Part shown: piece after piece, positions 5,120 through 46,234 of the stretch
Numbering within the stretch: position 1 is the first letter of the stretch
How the letters are laid out: every line of letters begins with the position of its first letter
DNA from: Pyropia yezoensis
Taxonomy: Eukaryota > Rhodophyta > Bangiophyceae > Bangiales > Bangiaceae
Length of the DNA stretch: 64,000 nt
NCBI GenBank assembly: GCA_009829735.1
Contig: CM020618.1
Location: forward strand, 7,965,119-8,029,118
Reading direction: 5' to 3'
Program-made: the position numbers and the translations under genes
The notes under the pieces: model-generated
Told to the model about the DNA's origin: nothing
Seen by the model: only the letters and a program-made list of their open reading frames with translations
Databases searched by the model: none

Positions 5120-5125
5120 GAGTCG

Positions 5126-14271: not shown

Positions 14272-14272
14272 A

Positions 14273-17770: not shown

Positions 17771-17774
17771 TATT

Positions 17775-19590: not shown

Positions 19591-19736
19591 GCACCCTCCA
19601 AGATGGACAAGGCACAGGTACACGCAATCCGGGTGGCAACCTTACAGAGCATCACGGAGGCTCTGGCAAGGGAAGCTCCTACGGACTTTGACCTGGAGAC
19701 CGAAACCTCTAAGGAATTTTTGGACCCGGCACACGA

Positions 19737-22027: not shown

Positions 22028-22173
22028 TCGTGTGCCGGGTCCAAAAATTCCTTAGAGGTTTCGGTCTCCAGGTCAAAGTCCGTAGGAGCTTCCCTTGCCA
22101 GAGCCTCCGTGATGCTCTGTAAGGTTGCCACCCGGATTGCGTGTACCTGTGCCTTGTCCATCTTGGAGGGTGC

Positions 22174-23784
22174 TCACCGGTCAGCCCAGTTGACTGCCTG
22201 TGCAAACACCAGTCCTTGACGCTGGAGCTTCTCCTGTAGGTCCTTGGGAATGGTCGGGCACTGGTGGGACATTTGGTCCTCCTTTTGGCACAGCCAAAAA
22301 GACCATAACCGCTGGGTCTTGACCTGCTTGGGGGCGACCAGGGAAGGTTGCTCCTTAGAAACGAAGCCGCCCCACTTGTCCCCTGACCCCACGGGTGAGG
22401 CCTCGCCAACTGCGAGTACCGGTACAGGGCTATCACCTCCCTTATACTTGGCGGGTCCGGGACGAACTCGCGACAACGGCTTGGGAGTTGATACCATGGG
22501 AGCTTGGGGGGCCTTGGCTTGCCGGTACTTGCCCTGGGTGTAGGCCATCAACTGCTGGAAGGTATGTTCTTGGTGTTCCGGGTTGTAGTTCTCCGCATCC
22601 ACTTGAAGATATTCAGGAAGCCCTTCCGAGAAGATCATCTTGAGCCTGTCCTCAGAATAAACGTTGCCACAAGCCTCGCTCATCTCCCGGACGCGACGGG
22701 CGAAGGCCTCTGGAGTCTCTTGTCTCTCCATGGTTGCCCGGTTCAGCCTGCCGACTGCTTTACGCAGGGAGTCCGCGTCAGCGTAGTTGGACAGGAGCCA
22801 GTTGACCGCCTCCGGATAACTCCCAACGGTACGCCCGACAATGTGTCCGGCAGAGTCTGGTAGAACCTGTGCAAACCGCTGTTCCGCTTCTCCGGTCATG
22901 AAGTTAACCAGGAGGTAGAGAGCCTTGCCCTCGGACACATCGTTGTCGTTGCATGCCTTGACAAACCGGCGCAGGAAGGCAAAGATAAGCGCCGGTCTCT
23001 TCCCGGAAAACTTAGGATGTCCCCCGAAGCTCGGCTGCATTCGCCGGTTCAGGGATGCCATCTTCTTGGCCACTTTCCGGGTGTAACCTTGGTCTTGGTT
23101 CTCCAGCCGGTAGTTACCCCAATACGTGACCTTGTTCAGGGTGGCATCTCCCACTTGGTGGGCAGGGAAGTCAAACTCGACTAGCCTGCGCCGGGTGGGA
23201 CCGGGAGATGCATCCCAGTCATATCCCTCCTCAGAGCTGGAGGAACTGGTCTCGCTGGTGCTAGAGCGACGACGACGACGCCGACGCCTCCGGCTGCTCC
23301 GGTTAACGGTCTTGGAGCTCCCCGCCCCATAGGATGCAAGGGGAGGAAAATCTTGGCCGGTCCCAGGAGTCGAGGTCTCAGGGTGACCCGTAGAACCAGT
23401 CACAGCGGTGCCTCTGGCACTGCTAGTGCCCACAGGAAGAGGTGTATACACCCAGCTGCCATGTGTGGGTCCAGGAGTAAACACACCAGGGGCTATCTCT
23501 GGAGGTTGAGGAGTAGAACCGACAGGAGGGAGACGTCTGCTGCGAGCGGACTCAACCGCCGTTGACCCCGGGGTGGCTCCCACAGGAGGAACAGCCGGAG
23601 GAACGGGAGCAGGAGGTACTTGGCCGCCTGTAGACCACAGTCCCCTACCGGATGTCACACCCAGGTCTGCTTCACCCGTAGGGAGAGCGCCGGGTTGGGC
23701 ACCGTCCCCCGCGGTGACCAGGGATGCGTCAAGGGACGCGGGGTCTACCCCTTCGGGCACCGTCGTGCCAGGGAGGGTAGCCAT
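22174..23784 (-). pseudogene. gag: Family B gag, right arm, with premature stop
   Basis: Inverted copy of 17980-19590 with the same start (MATLPGTTVPEG), the same TGA truncation and the same damaged zinc knuckle (FWLCQKEDQMSHQC). The few differences include LSRVRPGP for LSQVRPGP and VLAVGEAS for VLSVGEAS. Confidence 0.85.
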
Positions 23785-23974
23785 GTTGGTCTCTTGACAG
23801 CCACAGTCCAGTTGCCTGCGTGTCCAAAGATCGCAAGACCACAAGAGAGGGGTTGGAGAGCCAGGAATGGGATTCCCGTGAACGGGTGCAAATAATTCCC
23901 AAACCACAGAAAAAGACAGAACAGGAACAACCCAACCGCTGCTCGCAAATGTCTCTTCTCAAACACTCCGACAA

Positions 23975-23992
23975 TCCCCTGCTGCTCCACTA
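23975..23992 (-). promoter_or_regulatory. Primer-binding site, family B right arm (one mismatch)
   Basis: The minus strand reads TAGTGGAGCAGCAGGGGA, one change from the shared 18-mer, just inside the inverted LTR. Confidence 0.75.
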
Positions 23993-23996
23993 AATA

Positions 23997-24568
23997 TGTG
24001 GTATAAAACTCGATTCTCTCAGACACGTGTCAATATCCATCGGGGTAAAGGGACAGGTAACACAGAAAGGGGAACTACGAGAGTGGTGTACCTGTTACCT
24101 CACCTGCCTGCTCGCAGAGCAAACAGGTACGCACGGTCGTGCACACGGGGAAAAGGAAAGCAAACGCGCAGTTGTCTTTTTCCTGAGGGCGCGGGCCAAG
24201 GGCGCCTCGCTGTCCCTCTTAACGTGCATCTGGGGGAGCCTCGGCACGTTGGCCAGGTAGCCCCCCCCATAACCCCGAGTGGCCCCGACCCGAGTCTAAC
24301 CTCGTCAGGTCGGGGGCCACTATCACTACTAATTCTATTCCCACTCACTAATCTCACACTCAATTTCTCTCAAATCAAGTCCCTCACAAGTGTGCAAAAA
24401 CCCATCAGAAATCCCTCTCTCACGTGTGGATAGCGTAGTCCACTGCATCCCAGTGCCGGGCACGGGCCACGGCCGCCAATCATCACCACACGGCGGCCGG
24501 GTTCTGGCACCTGGTGCCCTCTGGTTGTAGTCCCGGGTCGGCGCCAAGTCGGGGCCAGGGATGCTACA
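23997..24568 (-). repeat. LTR of family B (right arm, inverted)
   Basis: 572 bp, reverse complement of the left-arm LTR with a few substitutions. Its outer end (24568) joins directly to family C gag coding sequence. Confidence 0.9.
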
Positions 24569-25594
24569 AGTTCCATCCCACTCCGCTTTGTGCCCAAAAA
24601 AGTGAAGTGCATTCTTCTTGGCACGGCCCATGGCTTGGGCCTGGTCAAGGCCATACGCCACCGACCTATTGTGGAGGGCGTAGGTCTCACAATCAAAGAT
24701 CCTCTGGTAGACCGGGTTGGCTACCTGGATCTTGGGCGGCACCTCACGTTGAGGGAACAGCCGCTGTGGCACTGGGGCAAGTTCACCCTCAGTGCCCATA
24801 GTCTGGCGCGGCGCGCTTGGTGTAGCCGCCGGCATTTCCGGGTGGAACTCCCCCATGAAGGGCGTACGCCCCACCGAGTATGGTGTGGCTCCCTCGTTGG
24901 GAGTCACAGGTGTCGCTCCCTGTTCGGGGCGACCAGAGGTAGGCGTGAGGAGGGATTCCCCTTGCGCCCGCGGGCTCGAAAGCCCCGATCCGGTCTGGAC
25001 ATTAAGGCCATCTGGCAAACTCGCCACAATCTGATTCAGAATTGTATTCGTCATCGTGACCACCAGGTCCGGCAAAGTCTGCCGCAACACATTGGTCGCC
25101 TCCCGACGGACAGTTTCCGCGAGGAGTGGATTGACGACTCCAGTTGAGTCTCGGTCCGCCTCCGGGAGTCCACCTGAGGGGTAACCACGTTCCTCAGGGG
25201 TCTCAACCGGGGGCATGGGCGCGAGCCCATCGCCGACCAACGGAGGTCCGCCGTCCTCCGAAAGCCTAGTTGGCGACGGCTCCAAGCCAAAGTTGGCTCC
25301 AACCCGAGTGGAACCCGCGGGGACAGTCCTCACCCCTTGGGACGTTCCCGTTGAGTATACCACACGGTGGCCAGACTTCGGCCCACCCACATCAGAAGGG
25401 TCACCCGAGCGAACTCCCGACTGAGTCGGGGTGGCCTGTTGCCCGCCCGCACTTCCAGTCCTGCTGGCTTGAGGGACCTCTAGTCCCTCTGCGACCCCAG
25501 GTCAACCCACCTGTGTCTCACCAGTATTCAAAGGCACTGGAGTACGTGCGTCACCCGTGTACTCCCCGGACGACGGGGGGTCCGAACTAGCCAT
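24569..25594 (-). pseudogene. gag: Family C gag, 5' part
   Basis: ATG at 25594 (MASSDPPSSGEYTG). An in-frame TGA near 25504 is followed by a long open stretch (from MGGPKSGHRV at 25390) with VYQRIFDCETYALHNRSVAY and RAKKNALHFFGHKAEWDG. This corresponds to the start of the capsid region in families B (PSFGGHPKFSG) and D (HSFGGYPPFSG). It is cut off there by the LTR of the inverted duplication. No zinc knuckle remains. Confidence 0.7.
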
Positions 25595-31095: not shown

Positions 31096-31177
31096 TGAAG
31101 CGTTACGACCACCGCGTGCCCACAGGGAACCCAATCCACCCCAGAGGGACAACGGGTAACCACTAGAAGGAACGTGC
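31096..31177 (-). repeat. Family D 5' LTR, inner end
   Basis: Sequence between the family D primer-binding site and the insertion point of element III. The LTR resumes at 46235 after the second copy of the target duplication cgtgc. Confidence 0.65.
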
Positions 31178-31750
31178 TGTAGCATCCCTGGCCCCGACTT
31201 GGCGCCGACCCGGGACTGCAACCAGAGGGCACCAGGTGCCAGAACACGCCCGCCGTGTGGCGATGGTTGGCGGCCGTGGCCCGTGCCCGGCACTGGGATG
31301 CGGTGGACTACGCTATCCACACGCGAGAGAGGGATTTCTGATGTGTTTTTGCATATTTGTGAGGGACTTGATTTGAGAGAATTTGAGTGTGAGATTAGTG
31401 AGTGGGAATAGAATTAGTAGTGATAGTGGCCCCCGACCTGACGAGGTTAGACTCGGGTCGGGGCCACTCGGGGTTATGGGGGGGGCTACCGGGCCAACGT
31501 GCCGGGGTTCCCCCAGATGCACGTTAAGAGGGACAGCGAGGCGCCCTCGGCCCGCGCCCTCAGGGAAAAAGACAACTGCGCGTTTGCTTTCCTCTTCCCC
31601 GTGTGCACTACCGTGCGTATCTGTTTGCCCTGCGAGCAGGCACGTGAGGCAACAGGCATACCATTCTCGTAGTTCCCCTTTCTGCGTTACCTGTCCCTTT
31701 CCCCCGAGGGATATTGACACGTGTCTGAGAGGATCGAGTTTTATACCACA
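31178..31750 (+). repeat. 5' LTR of element III
   Basis: 573 bp, TGTAGC...CCACA; no difference from 45657-46229 was seen by eye. Confidence 0.95.
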
Positions 31751-31754
31751 TATT

Positions 31755-31772
31755 TGGTGGAGCAGCAGGGGA
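31755..31772 (+). promoter_or_regulatory. Primer-binding site of element III
   Basis: TGGTGGAGCAGCAGGGGA, four bases inside the LTR. Confidence 0.85.
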
Positions 31773-31959
31773 TTGGAGTGTTTGAGAAGAGACATTTGGG
31801 AGCAGCGGTTGCGTTGTTCCTATTCTGTCTTTTTCTGTGGTTTGGGAATTATTTGCACCCGTTCACGGGAATCCCATTCCTGGCTCTCCAACCCCTCTCT
31901 TGTGGTCTTGCGATCTTTGGACACGCAGGCAACTGGACTGTGGCTGTCAAGAGACCAAC

Positions 31960-33720
31960 ATGGCTACCCTCCCTGGCACGACGGTGCCCGAAGGGGTAGA
32001 CCCCGCGTCCCTTGACGCATCCCTGGTCACCGCGGGGGACGGTGCCCAACCCGGCGCTCTCCCTACGGGTGAAGCAGACCTGGGTGTGACATCCGGTAGG
32101 GGACTGTGGTCTACAGGCGGCCAAGTACCTCCTGCTCCCGTTCCTCCGGCTGTTCCTCCTGTGGGAGCCACCCCGGGGTCAACGGCGGTTGAGTCCGCTC
32201 GCAGCAGACGTCTCCCTCCTGTCGGTTCTACTCTTCAACCTCCAGGGATAGCCCCTGGTGTGTTTACTCCTGGACCCACACATGGCAGCTGGGTGTATAC
32301 ACCTCTTCCTGTGGGCACTAGCAGTGCCAGAGGCACCGCTATGACTGGTTCTACGGGTCTTCCTGAGACTTCAACTCCTGGGACCGGCCAAGCTTTTCCT
32401 CCCCTTGCGTCCTATGGGGCGGGGAGCTCCAAGACCGGTGACCGGAGCAGCCGTAGGCGTCGGCGTCGTCGCCGCCGCTCTAGCACCAGCGAGACCAGTT
32501 CCTCCAGCTCTGAGGAGGGATATGACTGGGATGCATCTCCCGGTCCTACCCGGCGCAGGCTAGTCGAGTTCGACTTTCCTGCCCACCAAGTGGGAGATGC
32601 CACCCTGAACAAGGTCACGTATTGGGGTAACTACCGGCTGGAGAACCAAGACCAAGGTTACACCCGGAAGATGGCCAAGAAGATGGCATCCCTGAACCGG
32701 CGAATGCAGCCGAGCTTTGGGGGGCATCCTAAGTTTTCCGGGAAGAGACCGGCGCTTATCTTTGCCTTCCTGCGCCGGTTTGTCAAGGCATGCAATGACA
32801 ACGATGTGTCCGAGGGCAAGGCTCTCTATCTCCTGGTTAACTTCATGACCGGAGAAGCGGAACAGCGGTTTGCACAGGTTCTACCAGACTCTGCCGGGCA
32901 CATTGTTGGACGTACCGTCGCGAGTTATCCGGAGGCGGTCAACTGGCTCCTGTCCAACTACGCAGACGCGGACTCCCTGCGTAAGGCAGTCGGTAGGCTG
33001 AACCGGGCAACCATGGAGAGACAAGAGACTCCAGAGGCGTTCGCCCGTCGTGTCCGGGAGATGAGCGATGCTTGTGGCAACGTTTACCCTGAGGACAGGC
33101 TCAAGATGATCTTCTCGGAGGGGCTTCCTGAATATCTTCAAGTGGATGCGGAGAACTACAACCAGGAACATCAAGAACATACCTTCCAGCAGTTGATGGC
33201 CTACACCCAGGGCAAGCACCGGCAAGCCAAGGCCCTCCAGGCTCCTATGGTATCAACCCCCAAGCCGTTGTCGCGAGTTCGTCCCGGACCCGACAAGTAT
33301 AAGGGAGGTGATAACCCTGTACCGGTACTCGCAGTTGGCGAGGCCTCACCCATGGAGTCAAGGGACAAGTGGGGCGGCTTCGTTTCTAAGGAGCAACCTT
33401 CCCTGGTCGCCCCCAAGCAGATCAGGAACCAGCGGTTCCGGTCTTGCTGGCTGTGCCAGAAGGAGGATCATATGTCCTACCAGTGCCCGACCATTCCCGA
33501 GGATCTCCAGGAGAAACTCAAGCGTCAAGGACTGGTGTTTGCAAAGGCGGTCAACTGGGCTGACCGGCGGGCACCCTCCAAGATGGACAAGGCACAGGTA
33601 CATGCCATCCGAGTGGCAACCTTACAGAGCATCACGGAGGCTCTGGCAAGGGAAGCTCCTACGGACTTTGACCTGGAGACCGAAACCTCTAAGGACTCCT
33701 CGGAGCCGGGAAACGAGTAG
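31960..33720 (+). CDS. gag: Element III gag
   Basis: ATG at 31960 (MATLPGTTVPEGVD), 586 codons; the frame is open further upstream but this ATG has the shared context. The N-terminal ~160 residues are Pro/Gly/Thr-rich. A basic then acidic/Ser block follows (SRRRRRRRRRSSTSETSS), then the capsid-like helical domain (~220-430, with PSFGGHPKFSGKRPALIFAF and EAFARRVREMSDACGN). An intact CCHC zinc knuckle CWLCQKEDHMSYQC lies at ~497-510 and binds nucleic acid. It ends PGNE-TAG at 33718, directly after the slippery heptamer. Gag forms the particle and packages the RNA. Confidence 0.95.
   Translation: MATLPGTTVPEGVDPASLDASLVTAGDGAQPGALPTGEADLGVTSGRGLWSTGGQVPPAPVPPAVPPVGATPGSTAVESARSRRLPPVGSTLQPPGIAPGVFTPGPTHGSWVYTPLPVGTSSARGTAMTGSTGLPETSTPGTGQAFPPLASYGAGSSKTGDRSSRRRRRRRRRSSTSETSSSSSEEGYDWDASPGPTRRRLVEFDFPAHQVGDATLNKVTYWGNYRLENQDQGYTRKMAKKMASLNRRMQPSFGGHPKFSGKRPALIFAFLRRFVKACNDNDVSEGKALYLLVNFMTGEAEQRFAQVLPDSAGHIVGRTVASYPEAVNWLLSNYADADSLRKAVGRLNRATMERQETPEAFARRVREMSDACGNVYPEDRLKMIFSEGLPEYLQVDAENYNQEHQEHTFQQLMAYTQGKHRQAKALQAPMVSTPKPLSRVRPGPDKYKGGDNPVPVLAVGEASPMESRDKWGGFVSKEQPSLVAPKQIRNQRFRSCWLCQKEDHMSYQCPTIPEDLQEKLKRQGLVFAKAVNWADRRAPSKMDKAQVHAIRVATLQSITEALAREAPTDFDLETETSKDSSEPGNE
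33708..33717 (+). promoter_or_regulatory. -1 ribosomal frameshift site, gag to pol (element III)
   Basis: G GGA AAC in gag phase (33708-33714), then GAG and the gag stop TAG. Slipping back one base reads CGA GTA GGG CAG, opening a frame that runs without stop into the protease. Identical arrangement in element I. Confidence 0.85.
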
Positions 33721-33848
33721 GGCAGGCGCTCTCCCCAAGTGTCTTCCCGAATCTCCAACGGCAGGGTACTTCTACCTGTTCTCCCCTTGCGTGCCGGGAG
33801 AAAGGACGGCAGTTACCTGCTCAACCGGTAGCCGCCTGGACACCCTGT

Positions 33849-36800
33849 TTGTTCAAGGGGACCTTGCTCGTCCTGCGTAAGGAAAACCTCAAGATTAATG
33901 CTCGTATGCGTGTGGGGGATAGCCTCCCCCAAGCTGTTACGCCGGTGGTCGACACGGGAGCCGGACCAAGCGTCATCACTGAGAACCTGTTACCTCCGGG
34001 CTGGCGTCGACATGCCTGGAGAGCGCCTACCAAGACCCGGATTGTAGACGCATCAGGTCAAACCCTACGACCGCTTGGCCGTCTTCCCGTCGCCATCTAT
34101 GTCAACAATGAACCAATGCTTTTTCCCTTTCTAGTAGTCAAGACCTTATCAGTCCCCCTCATCCTAGGCTGGGACTTCCAGAAGCAGCATGTCAAGAGCA
34201 TCCTACCCGGAGAAGGAAAGGTGCAGTTCAACCATGGGGTTGTGTCACCAGTGCTGGAGCACCTGGACACCAAGGTTCGTGTGGCCAAGAACCAGAAGGA
34301 ACGCATCCCACCCTCCACCTTGACCCTCATCAAACCGGTGCTCCTACCTCCTCGCTCGGAGACCAAGGTTCAAGTCACGACCCGGACTGCAGGTCAATGC
34401 CTGATCTACGGACGCAAGGAATTTCTGGCGAAACACCGATTATACCTAGCCCACGGACACCACAAGAAGGTGGAGAGGCACACCCCGTTCTCGGTGCTGA
34501 TCGTCAACGTGAGCCGGAAGCCAATAACCCTCGCCAAGGGCACTCGAGTTGGTACAGCAGAGCCTTACCGGGGGTCCGCCCGCGCTATGAGCAAGGAAGA
34601 CCTCTTCAACCTGCAACAAGAGCTGGCATCCAACTTGACGGCCTTAGACGTATCTCCGGAACAAGAGCAGGCTGGCCGTACTACTCCGAAGCCGGAACAA
34701 GCACCGCCCGGGATGCCGAAGGTCAACCAAGAAAACGTCCCTCCCGACTTGAAGGAGGCACTGGAGAAGCTTCTCCAGGAACATCGGCATCTGTGGTCTG
34801 GAGAGCTGGGCAAGATGGACGCCACCCTACACCGGATTCAACTCAAGCCAGATGCCAAACCAGTGCACATGCACCCATACCGGGCTGGACCTCATCGCCG
34901 GGATGAGATTGAGAAGCAGGTTAACAAGATGCTCAAGATGGATGTTATCGAGCCGTCTGATGGCGAGTGGGCTTTCCCGGTGGTAGTCGTCCCGAAACCT
35001 GGCGGTCACTTCCGTTTCTGCGTTGACTACAGACGCCTGAACGAGATGACAGTCAAGGATGTATACCCGATACCCCGGATGGATGATTGCCTCGACTTTC
35101 TTGGTGATGCCACCCTCTTCTCGACGCTGGATTGTAATGCCGGTTACTGGCAGATCCCTCTGGCTGACGAGGACAAGGACAAGACTACCTTCACGTGCCA
35201 CATGGGACTGTTCCGGTGCAAGCGTCTCCCTTTTGGTCTCACTAATGCTCCGGCAACCTTCCAGAGAGCCATCGACATCATCCTGTCGGGGCTAAGGTGG
35301 AGAACATGTTTGGTCTACCTGGACGACATCATTGTTTTCTCCAAGACCCCAGCGGAACACCTGGAGCACCTTCGAGAGGTCCTGGCCCTCCTGTCCAAGG
35401 CTGGAGTTACCCTCAAGGCCGAGAAGTGCCACCTGTTTGAGACTGAGGTGGAGTACCTGGGGCACGTGCTGAGTCCGGGGGAGCTCCGAGTCAACGAGAA
35501 GAACATCAAGGCCCTCCGGCATGCACGGCAACCTAAAACCCAGACGGAACTCAAGAGCTTCCTGGGTATGTGCAACGTCTACCGCCGGTTCGTACGGGAC
35601 TACGCTCTGATTGCCCGGCCCTTGACCAAGCTTACTAGCAAGAAGCTTCCAGCACAACTCCCGGTGTTCGACGAGAAGCAGACAGCAGCCTTCGAAGAGC
35701 TCAAGAAGCGCCTGACCACCACTCCAGTACTGGCGTTACCCAAGCGGGAGGGTCAGGTTGTTCTGGAGACTGACGCCTGTGGCGTCCAGGTGGGGTGCTC
35801 ACTACTCCAGCAACAACCTGATGGGCACTTCCTCCCGATAGGCTACTACAGTCGCGTCTTGACTCCAGCCGAGAAGAACTATTCCACGACCGAGCGCGAG
35901 TGCTTGGCGGTCGTCTGGGCTTGCTTCCTGTTACGTCCATATCTTGAAGGACAAGAGTTCCTCATCCGGACGGACCACGCCAGTCTAAGGTGGCTGCTAT
36001 GCATGGACAGCAGTCAAGGAAGGGTCGCCCGGTGGCGCCTACGCCTTTCGGAGTTCAAGTACAAGGTGTGCACCAGAGCAGGGAGGGAGCACCACTGCGC
36101 CGACACCATGTCCAGGCTGGAGACTCCTGCAGCCGATACCGGTCCTATCCCGGAGGAAATACCTTGCTTCATCCTCCCGAATGTCGGACGTGGCTGGCAC
36201 GCTCCCCTGTACGAGACACCTGACGCTCATCAACCGGTAACCATTCACCGGATGCTGGAGGCACAATTGACGGACCCTCAATGCTTGGAGCTTCGCCACC
36301 AAATGGACCTGAACCGGAACAGTCGCTTCTCCGAGTCTACAGACGGACTCCTGGTACGGGTGTCACCCTTCGATGGGGCAACTCAAGTCTACGTACCCCG
36401 GAGCCTACGGACTGACATCCTACGCCTGGAGCACTTGTCTCCCCAGGCCGGGCATCCTGGTATCAATCGGATGTATGCTTCCATGAGACGACATTATTAC
36501 TGGGAAACCATGGCCAGTGACGTCCATAAGTGCCTGGAGGCTTGTATTTCTTGTGCAAGGAACCGGTTGTCCCAGAGGAAGAAGACTTCTAAGCTACGCC
36601 TATTCCCTGCGGCGGAGCCCTTTGCAAGCTTAAGCATGGACATCCTGGGGCCCCTACCTGAGACCTCCAGTGGCAACATATACCTGCTCATCATTTGTGA
36701 CCGGTTCTCCAAGTTCACTCGAGCAATCCCGTTGAGAACCATCACGGCTCTGGATGTCACGTCGGCCTTCTGCGAGTACTGGATAGCTGCCTACGGCCCT

Positions 36801-37808
36801 CCAGACTCCGTCTTAACCGACAACGGTCCCCAGTTTGCATCCCTGTTCTTCCAAGGAGTCTGTGACCTGATGGGCATCAAGAACTTGTACACCACGACGT
36901 ACCACCCTCAAACGAACGGTCAGGTGGAACGATTCAACCGGACCCTAGTGGACATGCTACGGCACTACGTGGAGGAGCACCAAGAAGACTGGGACGAGCT
37001 CCTGGCTGTCCTCACTCTAGCCTACAACTCCCGAGTTCACCGGACAACGGGAGTCGCTCCACTCGACTTTGTCACCCCAAGGCGGCTGACCAACTTCTCC
37101 CTGGAAAGAATACCGGATGGTCTCCAGCCTGCACTGAAGTCAGGTCCCAAGGCAAAGGATGAGTTCCTGGAACAACTAAAGCTCCTGCTCCCAAGAGTCA
37201 AGGAGTCAATCTCAAAGACCCAGGAGCGATACAAGCGGGACTATGACAAGGGTGTCCGGGAAAAGAACAAGGAACTGGGTGGTGGCGACTGGGTTTTTGT
37301 GGACAACCATAGCAAGACCCGGGGGAAGCTGGACTCTAAGACGGATGGACCTTATGAGATTCTCAATACGGATGGCTGGACCTTCCTTCTAGACGTGGAT
37401 GGCTCTCCGTACCGGGTGAGCAGCGACCATGTCACCCGAGCTCCACCGCCAAGCCAACGGGACTTGACCCGGCGTAAGCGGACTGCGATACCCTGGCTAT
37501 CCCAAGAAGAAGGTCGGGAATTTGTCTACGTCAAGTTTGTCGACCATGCCTGGAGAGATGGACGCCTGTACCTGCGAGTACGCTGGTTCGGCTTTAACCC
37601 AGCAGATGATACATGGGAACCCTCAAACCGGCTACCCATCGCGGACGTCTGTGCCTACACGCGACGGAACGGGATTGAGGGCACTCCCGTGGCCAGAGCC
37701 GGCAAGATTCTGGAGTCGGACACGGAGGAGGACCAAGAGGACGGGGCCAACCAAGACCCTGGGGACGAGACGAGCTCACCCGCAACGGATGCGGAACAAG
37801 AGGATTGA
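33849..37808 (+). CDS. pol: Element III pol: protease, RT, RNase H, integrase, chromodomain
   Basis: The frame is open from the shift site at 33714. Residues are counted from 33849. Protease VVDTGAGPSVI ~35. RT FCVDYRRLNEM ~390 and YLDDIIVF ~491. RNase H LETDACGVQVGC ~641, TERECLAVV, and RTDHASLRWLL. Integrase HHCC region (GHPGINRM to CISCARNRL) ~866-905; catalytic DDE in MDILGPLP ~930, LTDNGPQF ~990 and NGQVERFNRT. Chromodomain (VYVKFVDHAW, RVRWFGFNPADDTWEPSNRL) ~1222-1275, followed by an acidic tail. All key residues are present; 1319 residues without a stop. The chromodomain places it with the chromoviruses, and unlike plant Tat elements it combines that domain with an antisense gene. Confidence 0.95.
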   Translation: MFKGTLLVLRKENLKINARMRVGDSLPQAVTPVVDTGAGPSVITENLLPPGWRRHAWRAPTKTRIVDASGQTLRPLGRLPVAIYVNNEPMLFPFLVVKTLSVPLILGWDFQKQHVKSILPGEGKVQFNHGVVSPVLEHLDTKVRVAKNQKERIPPSTLTLIKPVLLPPRSETKVQVTTRTAGQCLIYGRKEFLAKHRLYLAHGHHKKVERHTPFSVLIVNVSRKPITLAKGTRVGTAEPYRGSARAMSKEDLFNLQQELASNLTALDVSPEQEQAGRTTPKPEQAPPGMPKVNQENVPPDLKEALEKLLQEHRHLWSGELGKMDATLHRIQLKPDAKPVHMHPYRAGPHRRDEIEKQVNKMLKMDVIEPSDGEWAFPVVVVPKPGGHFRFCVDYRRLNEMTVKDVYPIPRMDDCLDFLGDATLFSTLDCNAGYWQIPLADEDKDKTTFTCHMGLFRCKRLPFGLTNAPATFQRAIDIILSGLRWRTCLVYLDDIIVFSKTPAEHLEHLREVLALLSKAGVTLKAEKCHLFETEVEYLGHVLSPGELRVNEKNIKALRHARQPKTQTELKSFLGMCNVYRRFVRDYALIARPLTKLTSKKLPAQLPVFDEKQTAAFEELKKRLTTTPVLALPKREGQVVLETDACGVQVGCSLLQQQPDGHFLPIGYYSRVLTPAEKNYSTTERECLAVVWACFLLRPYLEGQEFLIRTDHASLRWLLCMDSSQGRVARWRLRLSEFKYKVCTRAGREHHCADTMSRLETPAADTGPIPEEIPCFILPNVGRGWHAPLYETPDAHQPVTIHRMLEAQLTDPQCLELRHQMDLNRNSRFSESTDGLLVRVSPFDGATQVYVPRSLRTDILRLEHLSPQAGHPGINRMYASMRRHYYWETMASDVHKCLEACISCARNRLSQRKKTSKLRLFPAAEPFASLSMDILGPLPETSSGNIYLLIICDRFSKFTRAIPLRTITALDVTSAFCEYWIAAYGPPDSVLTDNGPQFASLFFQGVCDLMGIKNLYTTTYHPQTNGQVERFNRTLVDMLRHYVEEHQEDWDELLAVLTLAYNSRVHRTTGVAPLDFVTPRRLTNFSLERIPDGLQPALKSGPKAKDEFLEQLKLLLPRVKESISKTQERYKRDYDKGVREKNKELGGGDWVFVDNHSKTRGKLDSKTDGPYEILNTDGWTFLLDVDGSPYRVSSDHVTRAPPPSQRDLTRRKRTAIPWLSQEEGREFVYVKFVDHAWRDGRLYLRVRWFGFNPADDTWEPSNRLPIADVCAYTRRNGIEGTPVARAGKILESDTEEDQEDGANQDPGDETSSPATDAEQED

Positions 37809-38096
37809 GAAGAAGGGAACGGGTATATCAAGGAGAACACGCAATGCAAGCATGGAACAATCAAGGAAACCAAGCACCCGCTCGAGCAACCCTTCTCTCC
37901 GCCTCTTCCCTCCTCGCTTCTCCCAAGACCCTCACCCTCCTTGCCTCCAACTACTACTCTCGGCGCGGACGCTGAGCCGCGGGAGTGTCCTCCGGCGCTA
38001 CCTCCGCGGTACGACGGGAACCGGAGGAAGACGGGATGACGTAGTGCGGTGGACGCGGCGCATCCCGGTATGACGCCATCGGAGTAGTACCAGTAG

Positions 38097-38596
38097 NNNN
38101 NNNNNNNNNNNNNNNNNNNNNNNNNNNNNNNNNNNNNNNNNNNNNNNNNNNNNNNNNNNNNNNNNNNNNNNNNNNNNNNNNNNNNNNNNNNNNNNNNNNN
38201 NNNNNNNNNNNNNNNNNNNNNNNNNNNNNNNNNNNNNNNNNNNNNNNNNNNNNNNNNNNNNNNNNNNNNNNNNNNNNNNNNNNNNNNNNNNNNNNNNNNN
38301 NNNNNNNNNNNNNNNNNNNNNNNNNNNNNNNNNNNNNNNNNNNNNNNNNNNNNNNNNNNNNNNNNNNNNNNNNNNNNNNNNNNNNNNNNNNNNNNNNNNN
38401 NNNNNNNNNNNNNNNNNNNNNNNNNNNNNNNNNNNNNNNNNNNNNNNNNNNNNNNNNNNNNNNNNNNNNNNNNNNNNNNNNNNNNNNNNNNNNNNNNNNN
38501 NNNNNNNNNNNNNNNNNNNNNNNNNNNNNNNNNNNNNNNNNNNNNNNNNNNNNNNNNNNNNNNNNNNNNNNNNNNNNNNNNNNNNNNNNNNNNNNN
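38097..38596. other. Assembly gap (500 N)
   Basis: Exactly 500 N, a conventional length for a gap of unknown size, lying inside element III. Confidence 0.99.
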
Positions 38597-41500
38597 GATG
38601 GCCTACACCCAGGGCAAGCACCGGCAAGCCAAGGCCCTCCAGGCTCCTATGGTATCAACCCCCAAGCCGTTGTCGCGAGTTCGTCCCGGACCCGACAAGT
38701 ATAAGGGAGGTGATAACCCTGTACCGGTACTCGCAGTTGGCGAGGCCTCACCCATGGAGTCAAGGGACAAGTGGGGCGGCTTCGTTTCTAAGGAGCAACC
38801 TTCCCTGGTCGCCCCCAAGCAGATCAGGAACCAGCGGTTCCGGTCTTGCTGGCTGTGCCAGAAGGAGGATCATATGTCCTACCAGTGCCCGACCATTCCC
38901 GAGGATCTCCAGGAGAAACTCAAGCGTCAAGGACTGGTGTTTGCAAAGGCGGTCAACTGGGCTGACCGGCGGGCACCCTCCAAGATGGACAAGGCACAGG
39001 TACATGCCATCCGAGTGGCAACCTTACAGAGCATCACGGAGGCTCTGGCAAGGGAAGCTCCTACGGACTTTGACCTGGAGACCGAAACCTCTAAGGACTC
39101 CTCGGAGCCGGGAAACGAGTAGGGCAGGCGCTCTCCCCAAGTGTCTTCCCGAATCTCCAACGGCAGGGTACTTCTACCTGTTCTCCCCTTGCGTGCCGGG
39201 AGAAAGGACGGCAGTTACCTGCTCAACCGGTAGCCGCCTGGACACCCTGTTTGTTCAAGGGGACCTTGCTCGTCCTGCGTAAGGAAAACCTCAAGATTAA
39301 TGCTCGTATGCGTGTGGGGATAGCCTCCCCCAAGCTGTTACGCCGGTGGTCGACACGGGAGCCGGACCAAGCGTCATCACTGAGAACCTGTTACCTCCGG
39401 GCTGGCGTCGACATGCCTGGAGAGCGCCTACCAAGACCCGGATTGTAGACGCATCAGGTCAAACCCTACGACCGCTTGGCCGTCTTCCCGTCGCCATCTA
39501 TGTCAACAATGAACCAATGCTTTTTCCCTTTCTAGTAGTCAAGACCTTATCAGTCCCCCTCATCCTAGGCTGGGACTTCCAGAAGCAGCATGTCAAGAGC
39601 ATCCTACCCGGAGAAGGAAAGGTGCAGTTCAACCATGGGGTTGTGTCACCAGTGCTGGAGCACCTGGACACCAAGGTTCGTGTGGCCAAGAACCAGAAGG
39701 AACGCATCCCACCCTCCACCTTGACCCTCATCAAACCGGTGCTCCTACCTCCTCGCTCGGAGACCAAGGTTCAAGTCACGACCCGGACTGCAGGTCAATG
39801 CCTGATCTACGGACGCAAGGAATTTCTGGCGAAACACCGATTATACCTAGCCCACGGACACCACAAGAAGGTGGAGAGGCACACCCCGTTCTCGGTGCTG
39901 ATCGTCAACGTGAGCCGGAAGCCAATAACCCTCGCCAAGGGCACTCGAGTTGGTACAGCAGAGCCTTACCGGGGGTCCGCCCGCGCTATGAGCAAGGAAG
40001 ACCTCTTCAACCTGCAACAAGAGCTGGCATCCAACTTGACGGCCTTAGACGTATCTCCGGAACAAGAGCAGGCTGGCCGTACTACTCCGAAGCCGGAACA
40101 AGCACCGCCCGGGATGCCGAAGGTCAACCAAGAAAACGTCCCTCCCGACTTGAAGGAGGCACTGGAGAAGCTTCTCCAGGAACATCGGCATCTGTGGTCT
40201 GGAGAGCTGGGCAAGATGGACGCCACCCTACACCGGATTCAACTCAAGCCAGATGCCAAACCAGTGCACATGCACCCATACCGGGCTGGACCTCATCGCC
40301 GGGATGAGATTGAGAAGCAGGTTAACAAGATGCTCAAGATGGATGTTATCGAGCCGTCTGATGGCGAGTGGGCTTTCCCGGTGGTAGTCGTCCCGAAACC
40401 TGGCGGTCACTTCCGTTTCTGCGTTGACTACAGACGCCTGAACGAGATGACAGTCAAGGATGTATACCCGATACCCCGGATGGATGATTGCCTCGACTTT
40501 CTTGGTGATGCCACCCTCTTCTCGACGCTGGATTGTAATGCCGGTTACTGGCAGATCCCTCTGGCTGACGAGGACAAGGACAAGACTACCTTCACGTGCC
40601 ACATGGGACTGTTCCGGTGCAAGCGTCTCCCTTTTGGTCTCACTAATGCTCCGGCAACCTTCCAGAGAGCCATCGACATCATCCTGTCGGGGCTAAGGTG
40701 GAGAACATGTTTGGTCTACCTGGACGACATCATTGTTTTCTCCAAGACCCCAGCGGAACACCTGGAGCACCTTCGAGAGGTCCTGGCCCTCCTGTCCAAG
40801 GCTGGAGTTACCCTCAAGGCCGAGAAGTGCCACCTGTTTGAGACTGAGGTGGAGTACCTGGGGCACGTGCTGAGTCCGGGGGAGCTCCGAGTCAACGAGA
40901 AGAACATCAAGGCCCTCCGGCATGCACGGCAACCTAAAACCCAGACGGAACTCAAGAGCTTCCTGGGTATGTGCAACGTCTACCGCCGGTTCGTACGGGA
41001 CTACGCTCTGATTGCCCGGCCCTTGACCAAGCTTACTAGCAAGAAGCTTCCAGCACAACTCCCGGTGTTCGACGAGAAGCAGACAGCAGCCTTCGAAGAG
41101 CTCAAGAAGCGCCTGACCACCACTCCAGTACTGGCGTTACCCAAGCGGGAGGGTCAGGTTGTTCTGGAGACTGACGCCTGTGGCGTCCAGGTGGGGTGCT
41201 CACTACTCCAGCAACAACCTGATGGGCACTTCCTCCCGATAGGCTACTACAGTCGCGTCTTGACTCCAGCCGAGAAGAACTATTCCACGACCGAGCGCGA
41301 GTGCTTGGCGGTCGTCTGGGCTTGCTTCCTGTTACGTCCATATCTTGAAGGACAAGAGTTCCTCATCCGGACGGACCACGCCAGTCTAAGGTGGCTGCTA
41401 TGCATGGACAGCAGTCAAGGAAGGGTCGCCCGGTGGCGCCTACGCCTTTCGGAGTTCAAGTACAAGGTGTGCACCAGAGCAGGGAGGGAGCACCACTGCG

Positions 41501-43497
41501 CCGACACCATGTCCAGGCTGGAGACTCCTGCAGCCGATACCGGTCCTATCCCGGAGGAAATACCTTGCTTCATCCTCCCGAATGTCGGACGTGGCTGGCA
41601 CGCTCCCCTGTACGAGACACCTGACGCTCATCAACCGGTAACCATTCACCGGATGCTGGAGGCACAATTGACGGACCCTCAATGCTTGGAGCTTCGCCAC
41701 CAAATGGACCTGAACCGGAACAGTCGCTTCTCCGAGTCTACAGACGGACTCCTGGTACGGGTGTCACCCTTCGATGGGGCAACTCAAGTCTACGTACCCC
41801 GGAGCCTACGGACTGACATCCTACGCCTGGAGCACTTGTCTCCCCAGGCCGGGCATCCTGGTATCAATCGGATGTATGCTTCCATGAGACGACATTATTA
41901 CTGGGAAACCATGGCCAGTGACGTCCATAAGTGCCTGGAGGCTTGTATTTCTTGTGCAAGGAACCGGTTGTCCCAGAGGAAGAAGACTTCTAAGCTACGC
42001 CTATTCCCTGCGGCGGAGCCCTTTGCAAGCTTAAGCATGGACATCCTGGGGCCCCTACCTGAGACCTCCAGTGGCAACATATACCTGCTCATCATTTGTG
42101 ACCGGTTCTCCAAGTTCACTCGAGCAATCCCGTTGAGAACCATCACGGCTCTGGATGTCACGTCGGCCTTCTGCGAGTACTGGATAGCTGCCTACGGCCC
42201 TCCAGACTCCGTCTTAACCGACAACGGTCCCCAGTTTGCATCCCTGTTCTTCCAAGGAGTCTGTGACCTGATGGGCATCAAGAACTTGTACACCACGACG
42301 TACCACCCTCAAACGAACGGTCAGGTGGAACGATTCAACCGGACCCTAGTGGACATGCTACGGCACTACGTGGAGGAGCACCAAGAAGACTGGGACGAGC
42401 TCCTGGCTGTCCTCACTCTAGCCTACAACTCCCGAGTTCACCGGACAACGGGAGTCGCTCCACTCGACTTTGTCACCCCAAGGCGGCTGACCAACTTCTC
42501 CCTGGAAAGAATACCGGATGGTCTCCAGCCTGCACTGAAGTCAGGTCCCAAGGCAAAGGATGAGTTCCTGGAACAACTAAAGCTCCTGCTCCCAAGAGTC
42601 AAGGAGTCAATCTCAAAGACCCAGGAGCGATACAAGCGGGACTATGACAAGGGTGTCCGGGAAAAGAACAAGGAACTGGGTGGTGGCGACTGGGTTTTTG
42701 TGGACAACCATAGCAAGACCCGGGGGAAGCTGGACTCTAAGACGGATGGACCTTATGAGATTCTCAATACGGATGGCTGGACCTTCCTTCTAGACGTGGA
42801 TGGCTCTCCGTACCGGGTGAGCAGCGACCATGTCACCCGAGCTCCACCGCCAAGCCAACGGGACTTGACCCGGCGTAAGCGGACTGCGATACCCTGGCTA
42901 TCCCAAGAAGAAGGTCGGGAATTTGTCTACGTCAAGTTTGTCGACCATGCCTGGAGAGATGGACGCCTGTACCTGCGAGTACGCTGGTTCGGCTTTAACC
43001 CAGCAGATGATACATGGGAACCCTCAAACCGGCTACCCATCGCGGACGTCTGTGCCTACACGCGACGGAACGGGATTGAGGGCACTCCCGTGGCCAGAGC
43101 CGGCAAGATTCTGGAGTCGGACACGGAGGAGGACCAAGAGGACGGGGCCAACCAAGACCCTGGGGACGAGACGAGCTCACCCGCAACGGATGCGGAACAA
43201 GAGGATTGAGAAGAAGGGAACGGGTATATCAAGGAGAACACGCAATGCAAGCATGGAACAATCAAGGAAACCAAGCACCCGCTCGAGCAACCCTTCTCTC
43301 CGCCTCTTCCCTCCTCGCTTCTCCCAAGACCCTCACCCTCCTTGCCTCCAACTACTACTCTCGGCGCGGACGCTGAGCCGCGGGAGTGTCCTCCGGCGCT
43401 ACCTCCGCGGTACGACGGGAACCGGAGGAAGACGGGATGACGTAGTGCGGTGGACGCGGCGCATCCCGGTATGACGCCATCGGAGTAGTACCAGTAG
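38597..43497 (+). repeat. Second copy of 33195-38096, probably an unmerged assembly overlap
   Basis: The sequence after the gap repeats, from the last quarter of gag to 38096, what stands before the gap. The only difference I found is one G fewer in a G run (39316 region versus 33915 region). It contains the gag end (38597-39122, with the slippery heptamer at 39110) and pol. Confidence 0.85.
39346..43209 (+). CDS. pol: Element III pol, duplicated copy (likely the same gene as 33849-37808)
   Basis: 1287 codons, the same protein as the copy before the gap from the protease (VDTGAGPSVI) to the acidic end. The apparent later start is caused by the missing G at ~39316, which breaks the frame just upstream; given the rest is identical, this is more likely a homopolymer error than a real mutation. 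It should not be counted as a second gene until the assembly is resolved. Confidence 0.85.
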   Translation: MVDTGAGPSVITENLLPPGWRRHAWRAPTKTRIVDASGQTLRPLGRLPVAIYVNNEPMLFPFLVVKTLSVPLILGWDFQKQHVKSILPGEGKVQFNHGVVSPVLEHLDTKVRVAKNQKERIPPSTLTLIKPVLLPPRSETKVQVTTRTAGQCLIYGRKEFLAKHRLYLAHGHHKKVERHTPFSVLIVNVSRKPITLAKGTRVGTAEPYRGSARAMSKEDLFNLQQELASNLTALDVSPEQEQAGRTTPKPEQAPPGMPKVNQENVPPDLKEALEKLLQEHRHLWSGELGKMDATLHRIQLKPDAKPVHMHPYRAGPHRRDEIEKQVNKMLKMDVIEPSDGEWAFPVVVVPKPGGHFRFCVDYRRLNEMTVKDVYPIPRMDDCLDFLGDATLFSTLDCNAGYWQIPLADEDKDKTTFTCHMGLFRCKRLPFGLTNAPATFQRAIDIILSGLRWRTCLVYLDDIIVFSKTPAEHLEHLREVLALLSKAGVTLKAEKCHLFETEVEYLGHVLSPGELRVNEKNIKALRHARQPKTQTELKSFLGMCNVYRRFVRDYALIARPLTKLTSKKLPAQLPVFDEKQTAAFEELKKRLTTTPVLALPKREGQVVLETDACGVQVGCSLLQQQPDGHFLPIGYYSRVLTPAEKNYSTTERECLAVVWACFLLRPYLEGQEFLIRTDHASLRWLLCMDSSQGRVARWRLRLSEFKYKVCTRAGREHHCADTMSRLETPAADTGPIPEEIPCFILPNVGRGWHAPLYETPDAHQPVTIHRMLEAQLTDPQCLELRHQMDLNRNSRFSESTDGLLVRVSPFDGATQVYVPRSLRTDILRLEHLSPQAGHPGINRMYASMRRHYYWETMASDVHKCLEACISCARNRLSQRKKTSKLRLFPAAEPFASLSMDILGPLPETSSGNIYLLIICDRFSKFTRAIPLRTITALDVTSAFCEYWIAAYGPPDSVLTDNGPQFASLFFQGVCDLMGIKNLYTTTYHPQTNGQVERFNRTLVDMLRHYVEEHQEDWDELLAVLTLAYNSRVHRTTGVAPLDFVTPRRLTNFSLERIPDGLQPALKSGPKAKDEFLEQLKLLLPRVKESISKTQERYKRDYDKGVREKNKELGGGDWVFVDNHSKTRGKLDSKTDGPYEILNTDGWTFLLDVDGSPYRVSSDHVTRAPPPSQRDLTRRKRTAIPWLSQEEGREFVYVKFVDHAWRDGRLYLRVRWFGFNPADDTWEPSNRLPIADVCAYTRRNGIEGTPVARAGKILESDTEEDQEDGANQDPGDETSSPATDAEQED

Positions 43498-45472
43498 TTG
43501 CCGGTGGCTCCCGCTCATCCAGATATGTCCGTCGGCGCCGCTGGAAGCCCGTGAAGGTCTCTGACCACTGCTGGGCCAGGCCATGCCGCGTCAAAGTCGC
43601 CAGAAGTTCGCCAACCACCGGGTTGTTCGACATCTGGCCGCTGTCCGCGCAAGCAAACACCCGGTCGACCACGTCGTTCAAGACGCTGGCGTAAGTACCC
43701 AGCACCAGAGAGGACCCGACGCCTTCAACCTGCACCGGAAGACGACCCAGCTGGTCTTCAATCATGCCGACGTCGTACTGGTCGCATGTTGGACCACCTT
43801 GGTTCAGGTACCAGTCAGGCACCCGGAAGCGGGTGAGGCGCAGAGTCGGCGCCGGAATCTCGAACCGGCCCGAGGATGACACTACCGGACGGTCCACAAC
43901 GGCCCCCGAGACCGGAGTACCCAACTCCAGCGGAGGCACAGCGCCGCCGGCGTTGGAAGAAGGCGTCCGGGGTAGAGCGGCCGGAGTAATCGGCGACCGC
44001 ACGGCCACTCCCAGACTCGCCGCAGACAAGCGCGGTGCCGGAGGAGCTTGAAGTACTGGCACAGCCGGAACAGGGCGCGGACGTGCCGGTGACGGTTCAG
44101 GCGAGGCGACCGGGGCGACAGGGGCAACCGGAGGAAGTGGAGCCGCCGCAGACGCCCGACCGACCGCCGCGGCCCATCCCGACTCCTGCACCGGCGGTCC
44201 AACTGGCAGAAGATCAAGGGCGGCCGGAGCAGGAAAGCTACCTAGCTGCGGCCACGCCGGAAGCGGCGTCGCCAGCTGCACCTTGGCCGGAGAAGACTGG
44301 TAGACCACCTGCGCCCAACCGAAGCCATCCCGACGCGGGCGGTTCTGGTCGGCAATCGCGTTCAAGAAGTTCCGGTCATGCACCGGCACCAGACGCCGGA
44401 AGTCGATCATCGCCTGGAAGAGCTCCTTGTACTCCTCGTCCTGGCTGCACAGGAAGTCGACGGTCAACTTGTCGACAATCCAGACCATCAGGAGGTCAGG
44501 GAGAAACCAAAGCCGGTTGGACACCAAGACCTCATGAAGCCAGTGGTTGGCCGCCAAGACTGTCATCTCGGACGTGTACATCATGTACGGGATTGAGTGG
44601 AAGAAGCCCTTGATCGACGCCTGAGTCAAGGCGTCCAAGAAGTACCAGGTGCAAGGGATGCTGGAAGGAGCAAACCCGACCGGGATCTCGACTTCCTGCT
44701 GCTGCGGGATGACCTTGGGGTAGTACGCCGCCCGGTTAGCCTTGTCCAGCTTCCAGAACTCCTGGTGGTTGCAGCTCACGAGGAAGTCACGCTGACGCCC
44801 GCGTCGCTCACCCTGCTCCCGTGCCGGCGACAACTTGGAGTATTTCCGGGTCAAGAAAGGCGGCTCCAGAGCGACCATGCTCGGACGGGGGTCGCAGTTC
44901 AAGCTTCCCGACCCCTTGAGCGCCTCGTCCCAGACCTTGAGCGCCCGGTGGACGTACCCTTCCTCCTCCGGCCACCGGAGAACGGACGCGGACACGCGAC
45001 GCTCGGTCAGGGGTAGATCCAGTACCAGCGCGAAGGGGAGATCCTCCAGACGAGCAGCCCAAGAGGAACCCGAGAAGCTCTGGGAGCGGTCTTGTGCCAG
45101 GCGCATCTGGTCCGCCGTATGAAGACGTGCCTTGTCCATCTCGGTCAAGACCCCGCGCTGGAGTTCCTTGCGCCAGAGGTCCATGCAATCCTGCTGGCAC
45201 TGGGCCGCGCCGGCGTTGCCGACCACCGTGGAGTAACGCCGGGCCGCCAGAGGGTCCTGCCCAAGGAGCATCTCCGGGAGACCCTCCGGGGGGGCCTCGA
45301 CCGGGTGCATCGCGGAAGCCGGGGGAACTCGATCCGTCCCCGCCGTGGCGACCGGCGCCGGCACCGACATCCGAGGAACCGGAGGCAGGAGAGGGGCACG
45401 ACGACCCGAGTTCTCCTCCGCAACACTCGCCGCCGGAACCACGGGCCCAGCTTGGATCTCGGAACTGGACAT
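43355..45472 (-). CDS. Antisense gene of element III, unknown function
   Basis: ATG at 45472 (MSSSEIQAGPVVPAASV), 705 codons, opposite to gag-pol, between pol and the 3' LTR; the stop lies 146 bp from the pol stop. Layout: Pro/Ala-rich N-terminus (1-100); a mixed region with MDKARLHTADQM and FALVLDLPLTERR; a central domain with ever more hydrophobic helices (YYPKVIPQQQEVEIPVGFA, ANHWLHEVLVSNRLWFLPDL, then DKLTVDFLCSQDEEYKELF); a Pro/Val/Ala linker (~470-560); a C-terminal block (PDWYLNQGGPTCDQYD, GSSLVLGTYASVLNDVVDRV, QQWSETFTGFQRRRR). No signal peptide or clear membrane span. It matches element I's antisense protein in order and motifs. Role unknown; regulation or RNA binding are guesses. 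Confidence 0.8.
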   Translation of the reverse strand: MSSSEIQAGPVVPAASVAEENSGRRAPLLPPVPRMSVPAPVATAGTDRVPPASAMHPVEAPPEGLPEMLLGQDPLAARRYSTVVGNAGAAQCQQDCMDLWRKELQRGVLTEMDKARLHTADQMRLAQDRSQSFSGSSWAARLEDLPFALVLDLPLTERRVSASVLRWPEEEGYVHRALKVWDEALKGSGSLNCDPRPSMVALEPPFLTRKYSKLSPAREQGERRGRQRDFLVSCNHQEFWKLDKANRAAYYPKVIPQQQEVEIPVGFAPSSIPCTWYFLDALTQASIKGFFHSIPYMMYTSEMTVLAANHWLHEVLVSNRLWFLPDLLMVWIVDKLTVDFLCSQDEEYKELFQAMIDFRRLVPVHDRNFLNAIADQNRPRRDGFGWAQVVYQSSPAKVQLATPLPAWPQLGSFPAPAALDLLPVGPPVQESGWAAAVGRASAAAPLPPVAPVAPVASPEPSPARPRPVPAVPVLQAPPAPRLSAASLGVAVRSPITPAALPRTPSSNAGGAVPPLELGTPVSGAVVDRPVVSSSGRFEIPAPTLRLTRFRVPDWYLNQGGPTCDQYDVGMIEDQLGRLPVQVEGVGSSLVLGTYASVLNDVVDRVFACADSGQMSNNPVVGELLATLTRHGLAQQWSETFTGFQRRRRTYLDEREPPATTGTTPMASYRDAPRPPHYVIPSSSGSRRTAEVAPEDTPAAQRPRRE

Positions 45473-45644
45473 ACCGTCCAGACTCCGGGGAACGAGAGGG
45501 CCAAGGTGAAGGAGCGGAGGGGGGGGGCAGAATCGGGGCAGGTGATCGTGACCGGGGTGAAGACGCTCGACCTCGGCACCGGTGTGGACGTGCTCGAGGC
45601 TGTGCACGGTGGCACCTGGTTCGGCCCGAGGACGTGCCGGACTA
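45473..45644. other. Leader of the antisense gene in element III
   Basis: About 170 bp between the antisense ATG and the polypurine tract. The antisense frame remains open through this stretch and into the LTR (to 45799). Transcription of the antisense gene would therefore start here or inside the 3' LTR. Confidence 0.4.
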
Positions 45645-45656
45645 GGGAGGGAGCTA
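45645..45656 (+). promoter_or_regulatory. Polypurine tract of element III
   Basis: AGGGAGGGAGCTA-like purine run directly before the 3' LTR. Confidence 0.7.
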
Positions 45657-46229
45657 TGTAGCATCCCTGGCCCCGACTTGGCGCCGACCCGGGACTGCAA
45701 CCAGAGGGCACCAGGTGCCAGAACACGCCCGCCGTGTGGCGATGGTTGGCGGCCGTGGCCCGTGCCCGGCACTGGGATGCGGTGGACTACGCTATCCACA
45801 CGCGAGAGAGGGATTTCTGATGTGTTTTTGCATATTTGTGAGGGACTTGATTTGAGAGAATTTGAGTGTGAGATTAGTGAGTGGGAATAGAATTAGTAGT
45901 GATAGTGGCCCCCGACCTGACGAGGTTAGACTCGGGTCGGGGCCACTCGGGGTTATGGGGGGGGCTACCGGGCCAACGTGCCGGGGTTCCCCCAGATGCA
46001 CGTTAAGAGGGACAGCGAGGCGCCCTCGGCCCGCGCCCTCAGGGAAAAAGACAACTGCGCGTTTGCTTTCCTCTTCCCCGTGTGCACTACCGTGCGTATC
46101 TGTTTGCCCTGCGAGCAGGCACGTGAGGCAACAGGCATACCATTCTCGTAGTTCCCCTTTCTGCGTTACCTGTCCCTTTCCCCCGAGGGATATTGACACG
46201 TGTCTGAGAGGATCGAGTTTTATACCACA
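45657..46229 (+). repeat. 3' LTR of element III
   Basis: 573 bp, no difference seen from 31178-31750; followed by the target duplication cgtgc. Confidence 0.95.
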
Positions 46230-46234
46230 CGTGC

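Follow-up and report, generated by a model that had tools for sequence, protein, structure and literature searches.

The question raised by this locus was whether a long open reading frame (ORF) lying opposite to gag and pol in a red-algal retrotransposon is a gene and, if so, of what kind. The locus lies in a window of 64,000 nucleotides of Pyropia yezoensis DNA (GenBank assembly GCA_009829735.1, contig CM020618.1, forward-strand positions 7,965,119 to 8,029,118), which is the whole stretch analyzed and to which all coordinates below refer. Two Ty3/Gypsy long terminal repeat (LTR) retrotransposons with different LTRs, termed elements I and III, were compared. The ORF in question (43355–45472, minus strand; 705 amino acids, approximately 77 kDa as predicted; hereafter P0001) is located between the pol stop codon of element III at 43209 and its 3' LTR at 45657–46229. 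This antisense ORF was found to be a real gene under purifying selection approximately as strong as that on pol. Moreover, it is highly probable that two P. yezoensis Ty3/Gypsy families, at least one of them chromodomain-bearing, carry a conserved antisense accessory gene between pol and the 3' LTR, the product of which would act in trans in regulation or against silencing.

A sequence-only reading of the window had pointed out that the 705 codons were uninterrupted, and this was verified. The antisense frame contained no internal stop, while the remaining five frames held 8, 11, 11, 13, and 19 stops, the values 8, 11, and 11 belonging to the sense strand. When the interval 43210–45656 was resampled 1000 times by a first-order model, the longest ORF beginning with ATG in either orientation had a median of 166, a 99th percentile of 337, and a maximum of 471 codons. 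Thus, the observed length exceeded all resamples.

To determine the selection on this frame, the P. yezoensis genome (107.5 Mb, the window being on contig C1) was searched with the antisense proteins, and the matches listed were near-identical copies of one family each. For family III, 30 genomic copies (24 distinct) carried 95 variants, of which 70 were synonymous, 25 were nonsynonymous, and none created a stop. The ratio of nonsynonymous to synonymous polymorphism (pN/pS) was 0.14, ranging from 0.125 to 0.152 for kappa values of 1–4. Random placement of the same mutations gave on average 65.3 nonsynonymous changes, with a minimum of 48 in 2000 draws. After L015 and L020 were dropped, 28 copies remained in which the pol end was colinear; in these, the antisense ratio was 0.135, compared with 0.129 for the last 450 codons of pol. 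As the antisense ORF does not overlap pol, this constraint cannot be a side effect of selection on pol. All 63 scored copies (the best 63 of 23,185 first-look candidates) were 98–100% identical and stop-free, and matches to the protein core contained a stop in only 1 of 150 scored. The ratio near 1 with frequent stops, by which the sequence-only reading had proposed to refute its claim, was accordingly not seen in the genomic copies.

The same variants bear on the possibility that the antisense frame is a by-product and that the selected feature is instead a cis element, an antisense RNA, or a sense-strand protein. Retroelement antisense transcripts can work as RNA, as the parts of the literature consulted describe, and the five other frames of the region had pN/pS values from 0.24 to 2.6, the lowest being one sense frame at 0.236. 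However, the variants fell on the first, second, and third positions of the antisense codons in the numbers 16, 11, and 68, all three sense frames were closed by stops, and the low sense value arose because the third positions of that frame coincide with those of the antisense frame. The sense-strand or cis-element explanation was therefore rejected as largely refuted by the codon pattern, and a by-product of any of these kinds was considered extremely improbable.

Several points, together with those on the protein itself given below, weigh against a conserved antisense gene. Ranking by protein similarity supplied the 30 copies of each family, and this favors copies with few amino-acid changes. 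Accordingly, a control set was chosen by the noncoding 145-bp spacer between pol and the ORF, taking the best 40 of 522 candidates. Among the matches listed, 20 of these 40 bordered a full ORF, and 11 more had the core at the expected place, while 9 were without a core, one of which was the gap of the window itself. Two of the 11 were read; both were open over 705 codons and differed from the window by 34 nucleotides, with 12 or 11 amino-acid differences. Their nonsynonymous and synonymous changes amounted to approximately 12 and 22 in one copy and 11 and 23 in the other. This signal was weaker yet still clear, since approximately one-third of the changes were nonsynonymous, compared with approximately two-thirds predicted under random placement. 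The constraint thus holds in the spacer-chosen copies, perhaps at a lower strength than the ratio of 0.14 indicates. A further point concerns the spacer from the antisense ATG to the 3' LTR (45473–45656), the length of which varied among copies in non-triplet steps. The single-base variation was mostly within a C run and could partly be sequencing error.

Length variation also marked the boundary of the gene. The distance from the LTR to the ATG was 183–187 bases in 29 of 30 family-III copies and 914 in the remaining copy. By comparison, the ORF match was 2115 nucleotides long in 61 of the 63 scored copies, one of the others beginning at residue 2 and one being longer by 9 nucleotides. Length changes were therefore non-triplet just upstream of the ATG and triplet inside the ORF matches, and the ATG at 45472 seems to lie close to where selection on length sets in. 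In all 30 family-III loci, the LTR was found upstream and the C-terminus of pol downstream on the opposite strand. This constancy is relevant to whether the ORF is a passenger of the element, originating as a captured host gene or as a nested transposon. That LTR elements can capture genes is described in the literature consulted. Against a passenger, the LTR and pol accompanied the gene in every copy, the constraint was approximately equal to that on pol, no Pfam or NCBIfam family was matched, and the family-I counterpart, as described below, persists in a second species. A passenger origin is thus quite unlikely, and a gene belonging to the element is preferred.

The region 31178–46229 is one complete chromodomain-bearing Ty3/Gypsy element. 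Its 5' LTR (31178–31750, plus strand; 573 bp, TGTAGCA...TACCACA) was 100% identical to the 3' LTR at 45657–46229, and the same 5-bp target duplication, CGTGC, was found on both outer sides (31173–31177 and 46230–46234). Thus, element III is a single element and not a tandem pair. A tandem pair is mimicked by a 500-N scaffold gap (38097–38596) inside the element, the 4.9-kb flank of which is duplicated (33195–38096 equals 38597–43497 at 99.98%); this is a scaffolding artefact with an unmerged overlap. The gag ORF (31837–33720, plus strand; 627 amino acids) had a weak CCHC zinc knuckle and matched the gag of element I with an expectation value (E) of 1e-18. The pol gene was found in the contig before the gap (33849–37808, plus strand; RVT_1, RNase H, H2C2, rve, and a weak Chromo match) and, intact to its stop, in the contig after it (39346–43209, plus strand). 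Both elements had LTRs, target duplications, a primer binding site (PBS), gag, and reverse transcriptase and RNase H before the integrase, with the pol domains in the order RVT_1, RNase H, H2C2, and rve, as expected of Ty3/Gypsy elements.

Element III carries a predicted integrase-linked, HP1-like chromodomain at the C-terminus of pol (42901–43053, plus strand). The C-terminus matched HP1 chromodomains in PDB with a best E of 1.5e-6, and Pfam Chromo matched at 22.0 bits, under its cut-off of 25.1 bits. In the accessible part of a 2012 survey, no retrotransposon chromodomain is given for its Porphyra yezoensis sequences (PMC3350952). For element I, where the C-terminus of pol gave weak matches to Pfam Chromo (E 0.12) and the cpSRP43 chromodomain (E 0.27), a chromodomain is doubtful. 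A description as a chromodomain element applies to element III and is uncertain for element I.

Other structures were observed near and beyond these elements. Two inverted gag-pol fragments of family III occupied 17193–24574, with arms at 17775–20415 and 21349–23989 that were 99% alike. An LTR-like copy at 17193 was adjoined by tandem repeats at 16748–17195, in which direct copies of 111–326 bp were 81–88% identical. Outside the window, at 34415300–34417400 of contig C1 (locus L063), a Dam-type adenine methyltransferase frame (locus positions 1–492, plus strand; PF05869, E 3e-8) followed a different reverse transcriptase family with a 1673-amino-acid frame, and an Arg/Ser-rich ORF of 476 amino acids lay opposite to it (649–2079, minus strand). 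We take this locus to be, perhaps, a DIRS-like element with an opposite-strand gene of its own.

Element I (3415–14635, minus strand) showed the same arrangement. Its 3' LTR (3415–3777, minus strand; 363 bp, TGTAGCA...TGCTACA) and 5' LTR (14273–14635, minus strand; 363 bp) were 98.9% identical when 3412–3777 was compared with 14270–14635, and the target duplication CACAG was found at 3410–3414 and 14636–14640. Its gag ORF (11358–12860) and pol (7129–11592; 1487 amino acids) were both on the minus strand, and an antisense ORF at 4361–6787, on the plus strand, had the place and orientation that the sequence-only reading had assigned to it. However, this window copy is not open, being broken by an in-frame TAA at 5117–5119, and it reads beyond the stop at which 28 of 30 copies end. 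Among the 30 family-I copies, 25 had an MSDP start within the 900 nucleotides scanned, and 18 were open from there to the usual stop. The LTR was upstream in 27 of 30 and the opposite-strand C-terminus of pol downstream in 29 of 30. Family I is more diverged than family III and partly decayed.

The antisense frame of family I was nevertheless constrained. Its 30 copies carried 184 synonymous and 168 nonsynonymous changes, 7 of the latter being stops, while random placement gave a mean of 246.9 and a minimum of 219 nonsynonymous changes in 2000 draws. The antisense pN/pS was 0.362, compared with 0.375 for pol, in 28 of the 30 copies (two were excluded because their pol part was gapped or diverged). 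The earlier claim of an antisense gene under selection in two families is thus borne out, with constraint approximately equal to that on pol in both. In the protein database, relatives of the family-I protein were 37–57% identical over 45–92% of the query, with Pyropia vietnamensis named in 6 of the 10 matches (the best 7995 candidates being scored); the family-I antisense protein therefore persisted across species. With P0011 as the query against the P. yezoensis genome, all 126 matches were 47–49% identical, several of them at known family-I copies and none closer.

Whether the two antisense genes descend from one ancestral gene, as the sequence-only reading suggested, was less clear. The elements themselves share ancestry, because the putative PBS TGGTGGAGCAGCAGGGG is common to both (after 31750 on the plus strand in element III; 14255–14271 on the minus strand in element I) although the LTRs differ, the pol proteins are 42.5% identical, and the gag proteins are 28% identical over 214 positions. 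Given this divergence and the common PBS, an antisense gene of equal age would be expected near the detection limit. The result of the profile comparison was borderline. Alignment of a family-I profile of 9 sequences with P0001 by hhalign gave a score of 30.7 over 96 core columns at 23% identity (E 0.0063), and this score was reached by 1 of 500 local shuffles overall, that is, by 1 of 60 in one batch and 0 of 440 in another. For 13 control segments taken from the window, the highest score was 19.4. When parts were compared alone, using 6 of the 9 family-I sequences each and with the parts picked after the motifs had been seen, the core score was reached by 3 of 300 shuffles and that of the C-terminal part by 5 of 300, which places both within the top 1–2% and in the same order. 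Low-confidence models of both proteins contained four C-terminal helices of similar spacing, at residues 440–451, 464–490, 496–507, and 509–524 in I and 568–576, 589–610, 618–629, and 634–653 in III.

Other comparisons favor unrelated proteins, each family having gained a gene of its own with the place and layout convergent. The HH-suite probability of the alignment was only 5.9%, the best BLASTP match between the two proteins had an E of 0.11 and fell within a Pro/Ala-rich stretch, and P0001 reversed scored 21.3, more than all 13 control segments; the single exceeding shuffle in the 60-shuffle batch points in the same direction. The motifs cited in the sequence-only reading gave a mixed result. 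Both proteins start with MS, and LWFLPDL/LFHLPTG and the W-S site were present. However, the Arg-rich block, said to follow in the same order, comes after W-S in III (residue 645) and before the linker in I (residue 380), and the pair LDLPLT/FHLPHP lay outside the profile alignment, FHLPHP not being seen in the relatives that cover this part; neither FHLPHP nor the Arg-rich motif thus had a correspondence. Common ancestry of the two proteins, judged from these alignments, is suggestive and unproven, and we lean slightly toward it, while separate gains are a serious alternative with somewhat less than an even chance. At close to an even chance, a single antisense gene may have been acquired before the two families split and kept since. 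It would then define an ancient accessory family of Bangiales Ty3/Gypsy elements, unrelated to TRP28 and diverging more quickly than gag and pol, which would be expected of an anti-silencing factor.

The proteins themselves gave few leads, and these are the points on the protein announced above. No known domain was found in P0001 with Pfam or NCBIfam. At E values up to 10, at which HMMER filters discard most weak matches, Pfam gave no family for P0001, and for family I it gave DUF6214 and RGS12_usC alone; PF04195 (TRP28) matched neither antisense protein. In the protein database, family III had a single match, P0002, at 98% identity (first search, best 7995 candidates), and P0001 matched nothing among viral contigs. 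Apart from one RRRR run, no localization signal was found. The AlphaFold models, which had been proposed as a check, were of very low confidence (predicted local distance difference test values of 34.0 and 31.7) and yielded no fold. The layout described earlier could be followed only in part; the Pro/Ala linker is present, while a disordered N-terminus, a globular center, and a helical C-terminus are plausible by composition.

These data also concern whether the product is a structural or entry factor, such as an envelope-like protein or a capsid partner, rather than a regulator. Its size of 77 kDa would suit such a role. However, hydropathy remained below the usual transmembrane threshold throughout, the highest mean over 19 residues being 1.54 in III and 1.35 in I (555 residues after the stop), and this absence of a transmembrane-like stretch speaks against an envelope. 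Furthermore, the antisense orientation uncouples the gene from gag-pol expression, and solved structures showed no convincing similarity (best E 0.005, for the Pro/Ala-rich stretch together with the residues after it). By its antisense orientation and its lack of a transmembrane segment, the gene differs from env-like accessory genes, and a structural or entry role is unlikely.

A regulatory rather than structural class remains our tentative guess, and by analogy with the antisense genes of Grande and the human T-cell leukemia virus (HTLV), a nuclear regulator or anti-silencing factor would be the likeliest role. In such a mechanism, an antisense promoter in or beside the 3' LTR, or in the spacer, would drive a separate transcript toward pol. 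The protein would presumably have a disordered N-terminus and a globular core, followed by the Pro/Ala linker and a helical C-terminus, and would serve as a trans-acting regulator or silencing antagonist that the element requires in order to spread. The motif TATAAAAC was found near the outer edge of the element-III LTR on the minus strand, and the sense strand was without such a motif. As a promoter hint it is weak, because the LTR of element I had no motif of this type on either strand. The antisense genes apparently diverge faster than gag and pol, as a factor in conflict with the host might be expected to do, without this proving such a role.

Compared with known systems, the kind of gene is familiar and the red-algal version is apparently new and unrelated in sequence. 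Extra ORFs of chromoviruses, according to Steinbauerova et al., are reportedly rare, restricted to the 5' side, and found in grasses. Antisense ORFs (aORF-3R) are described in the plant elements Grande and RIRE2 and in the Retand lineage; the excerpts of these sources place Retand among the non-chromovirus lineages of flowering plants, with TRP28 (PF04195) in 97% of clusters, and report an antisense promoter and a nuclear product for Grande (PMC11963269, PMC7264820). A regulatory or anti-silencing role has been suggested for the Grande and Retand genes by comparison with retroviral antisense genes. The Pyropia genes share with the Retand lineage the antisense orientation and the place of the ORF, between pol and the 3' LTR. 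Unlike that lineage, they gave no match to TRP28 or to other reported domains such as Smc, the host is a red alga, and element III bears a chromodomain.

The sequence-only reading had named the plant Tat lineage as the place of such genes, which is correct yet incomplete, because Boty-like elements of the fungus Botrytis have a gene, brtn, in antisense orientation (Zhao et al. 2011, cited in PMC7264820 and PMC8365987). As far as these citing passages describe it, Boty is likewise a Gypsy-type element outside plants in which an antisense gene separates pol from the 3' LTR; it differs in being fungal, and the likeness is one of description. The retroviral HBZ of HTLV, an antisense gene driven from the 3' LTR whose product is nuclear according to the passages available (PMC11963269; promoter, PMC7264820), is likened only as a way of working. 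Among algae, Gypsy lineages of the brown alga Ectocarpus have a chromodomain fused to integrase, as does element III. In the available parts of that source, these lineages are said to be unrelated to chromoviruses, so that chromodomain Gypsy elements outside chromoviruses exist, and "antisense" there refers, as far as seen, to small RNAs and not to an antisense gene as in the Pyropia elements (PMC12477816). A search of the open-access literature, which leaves most subscription journals uncovered, turned up no antisense gene described for a red-algal element.

Genes placed antisense between pol and the 3' LTR have thus been described mainly in flowering-plant elements and one fungal element. 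The present genes add a very distant host group, an apparently unrelated protein, and at least one chromodomain-bearing element, as well as a direct measure showing the constraint on such a protein to be about equal to that on pol. Repeated and independent evolution of these genes would argue that an antisense gene on the 3'-LTR side is a general solution to some problem of the elements, such as regulation or escape from silencing. The genome, of 107 Mb, holds many open copies that are nearly identical, which makes this question testable.
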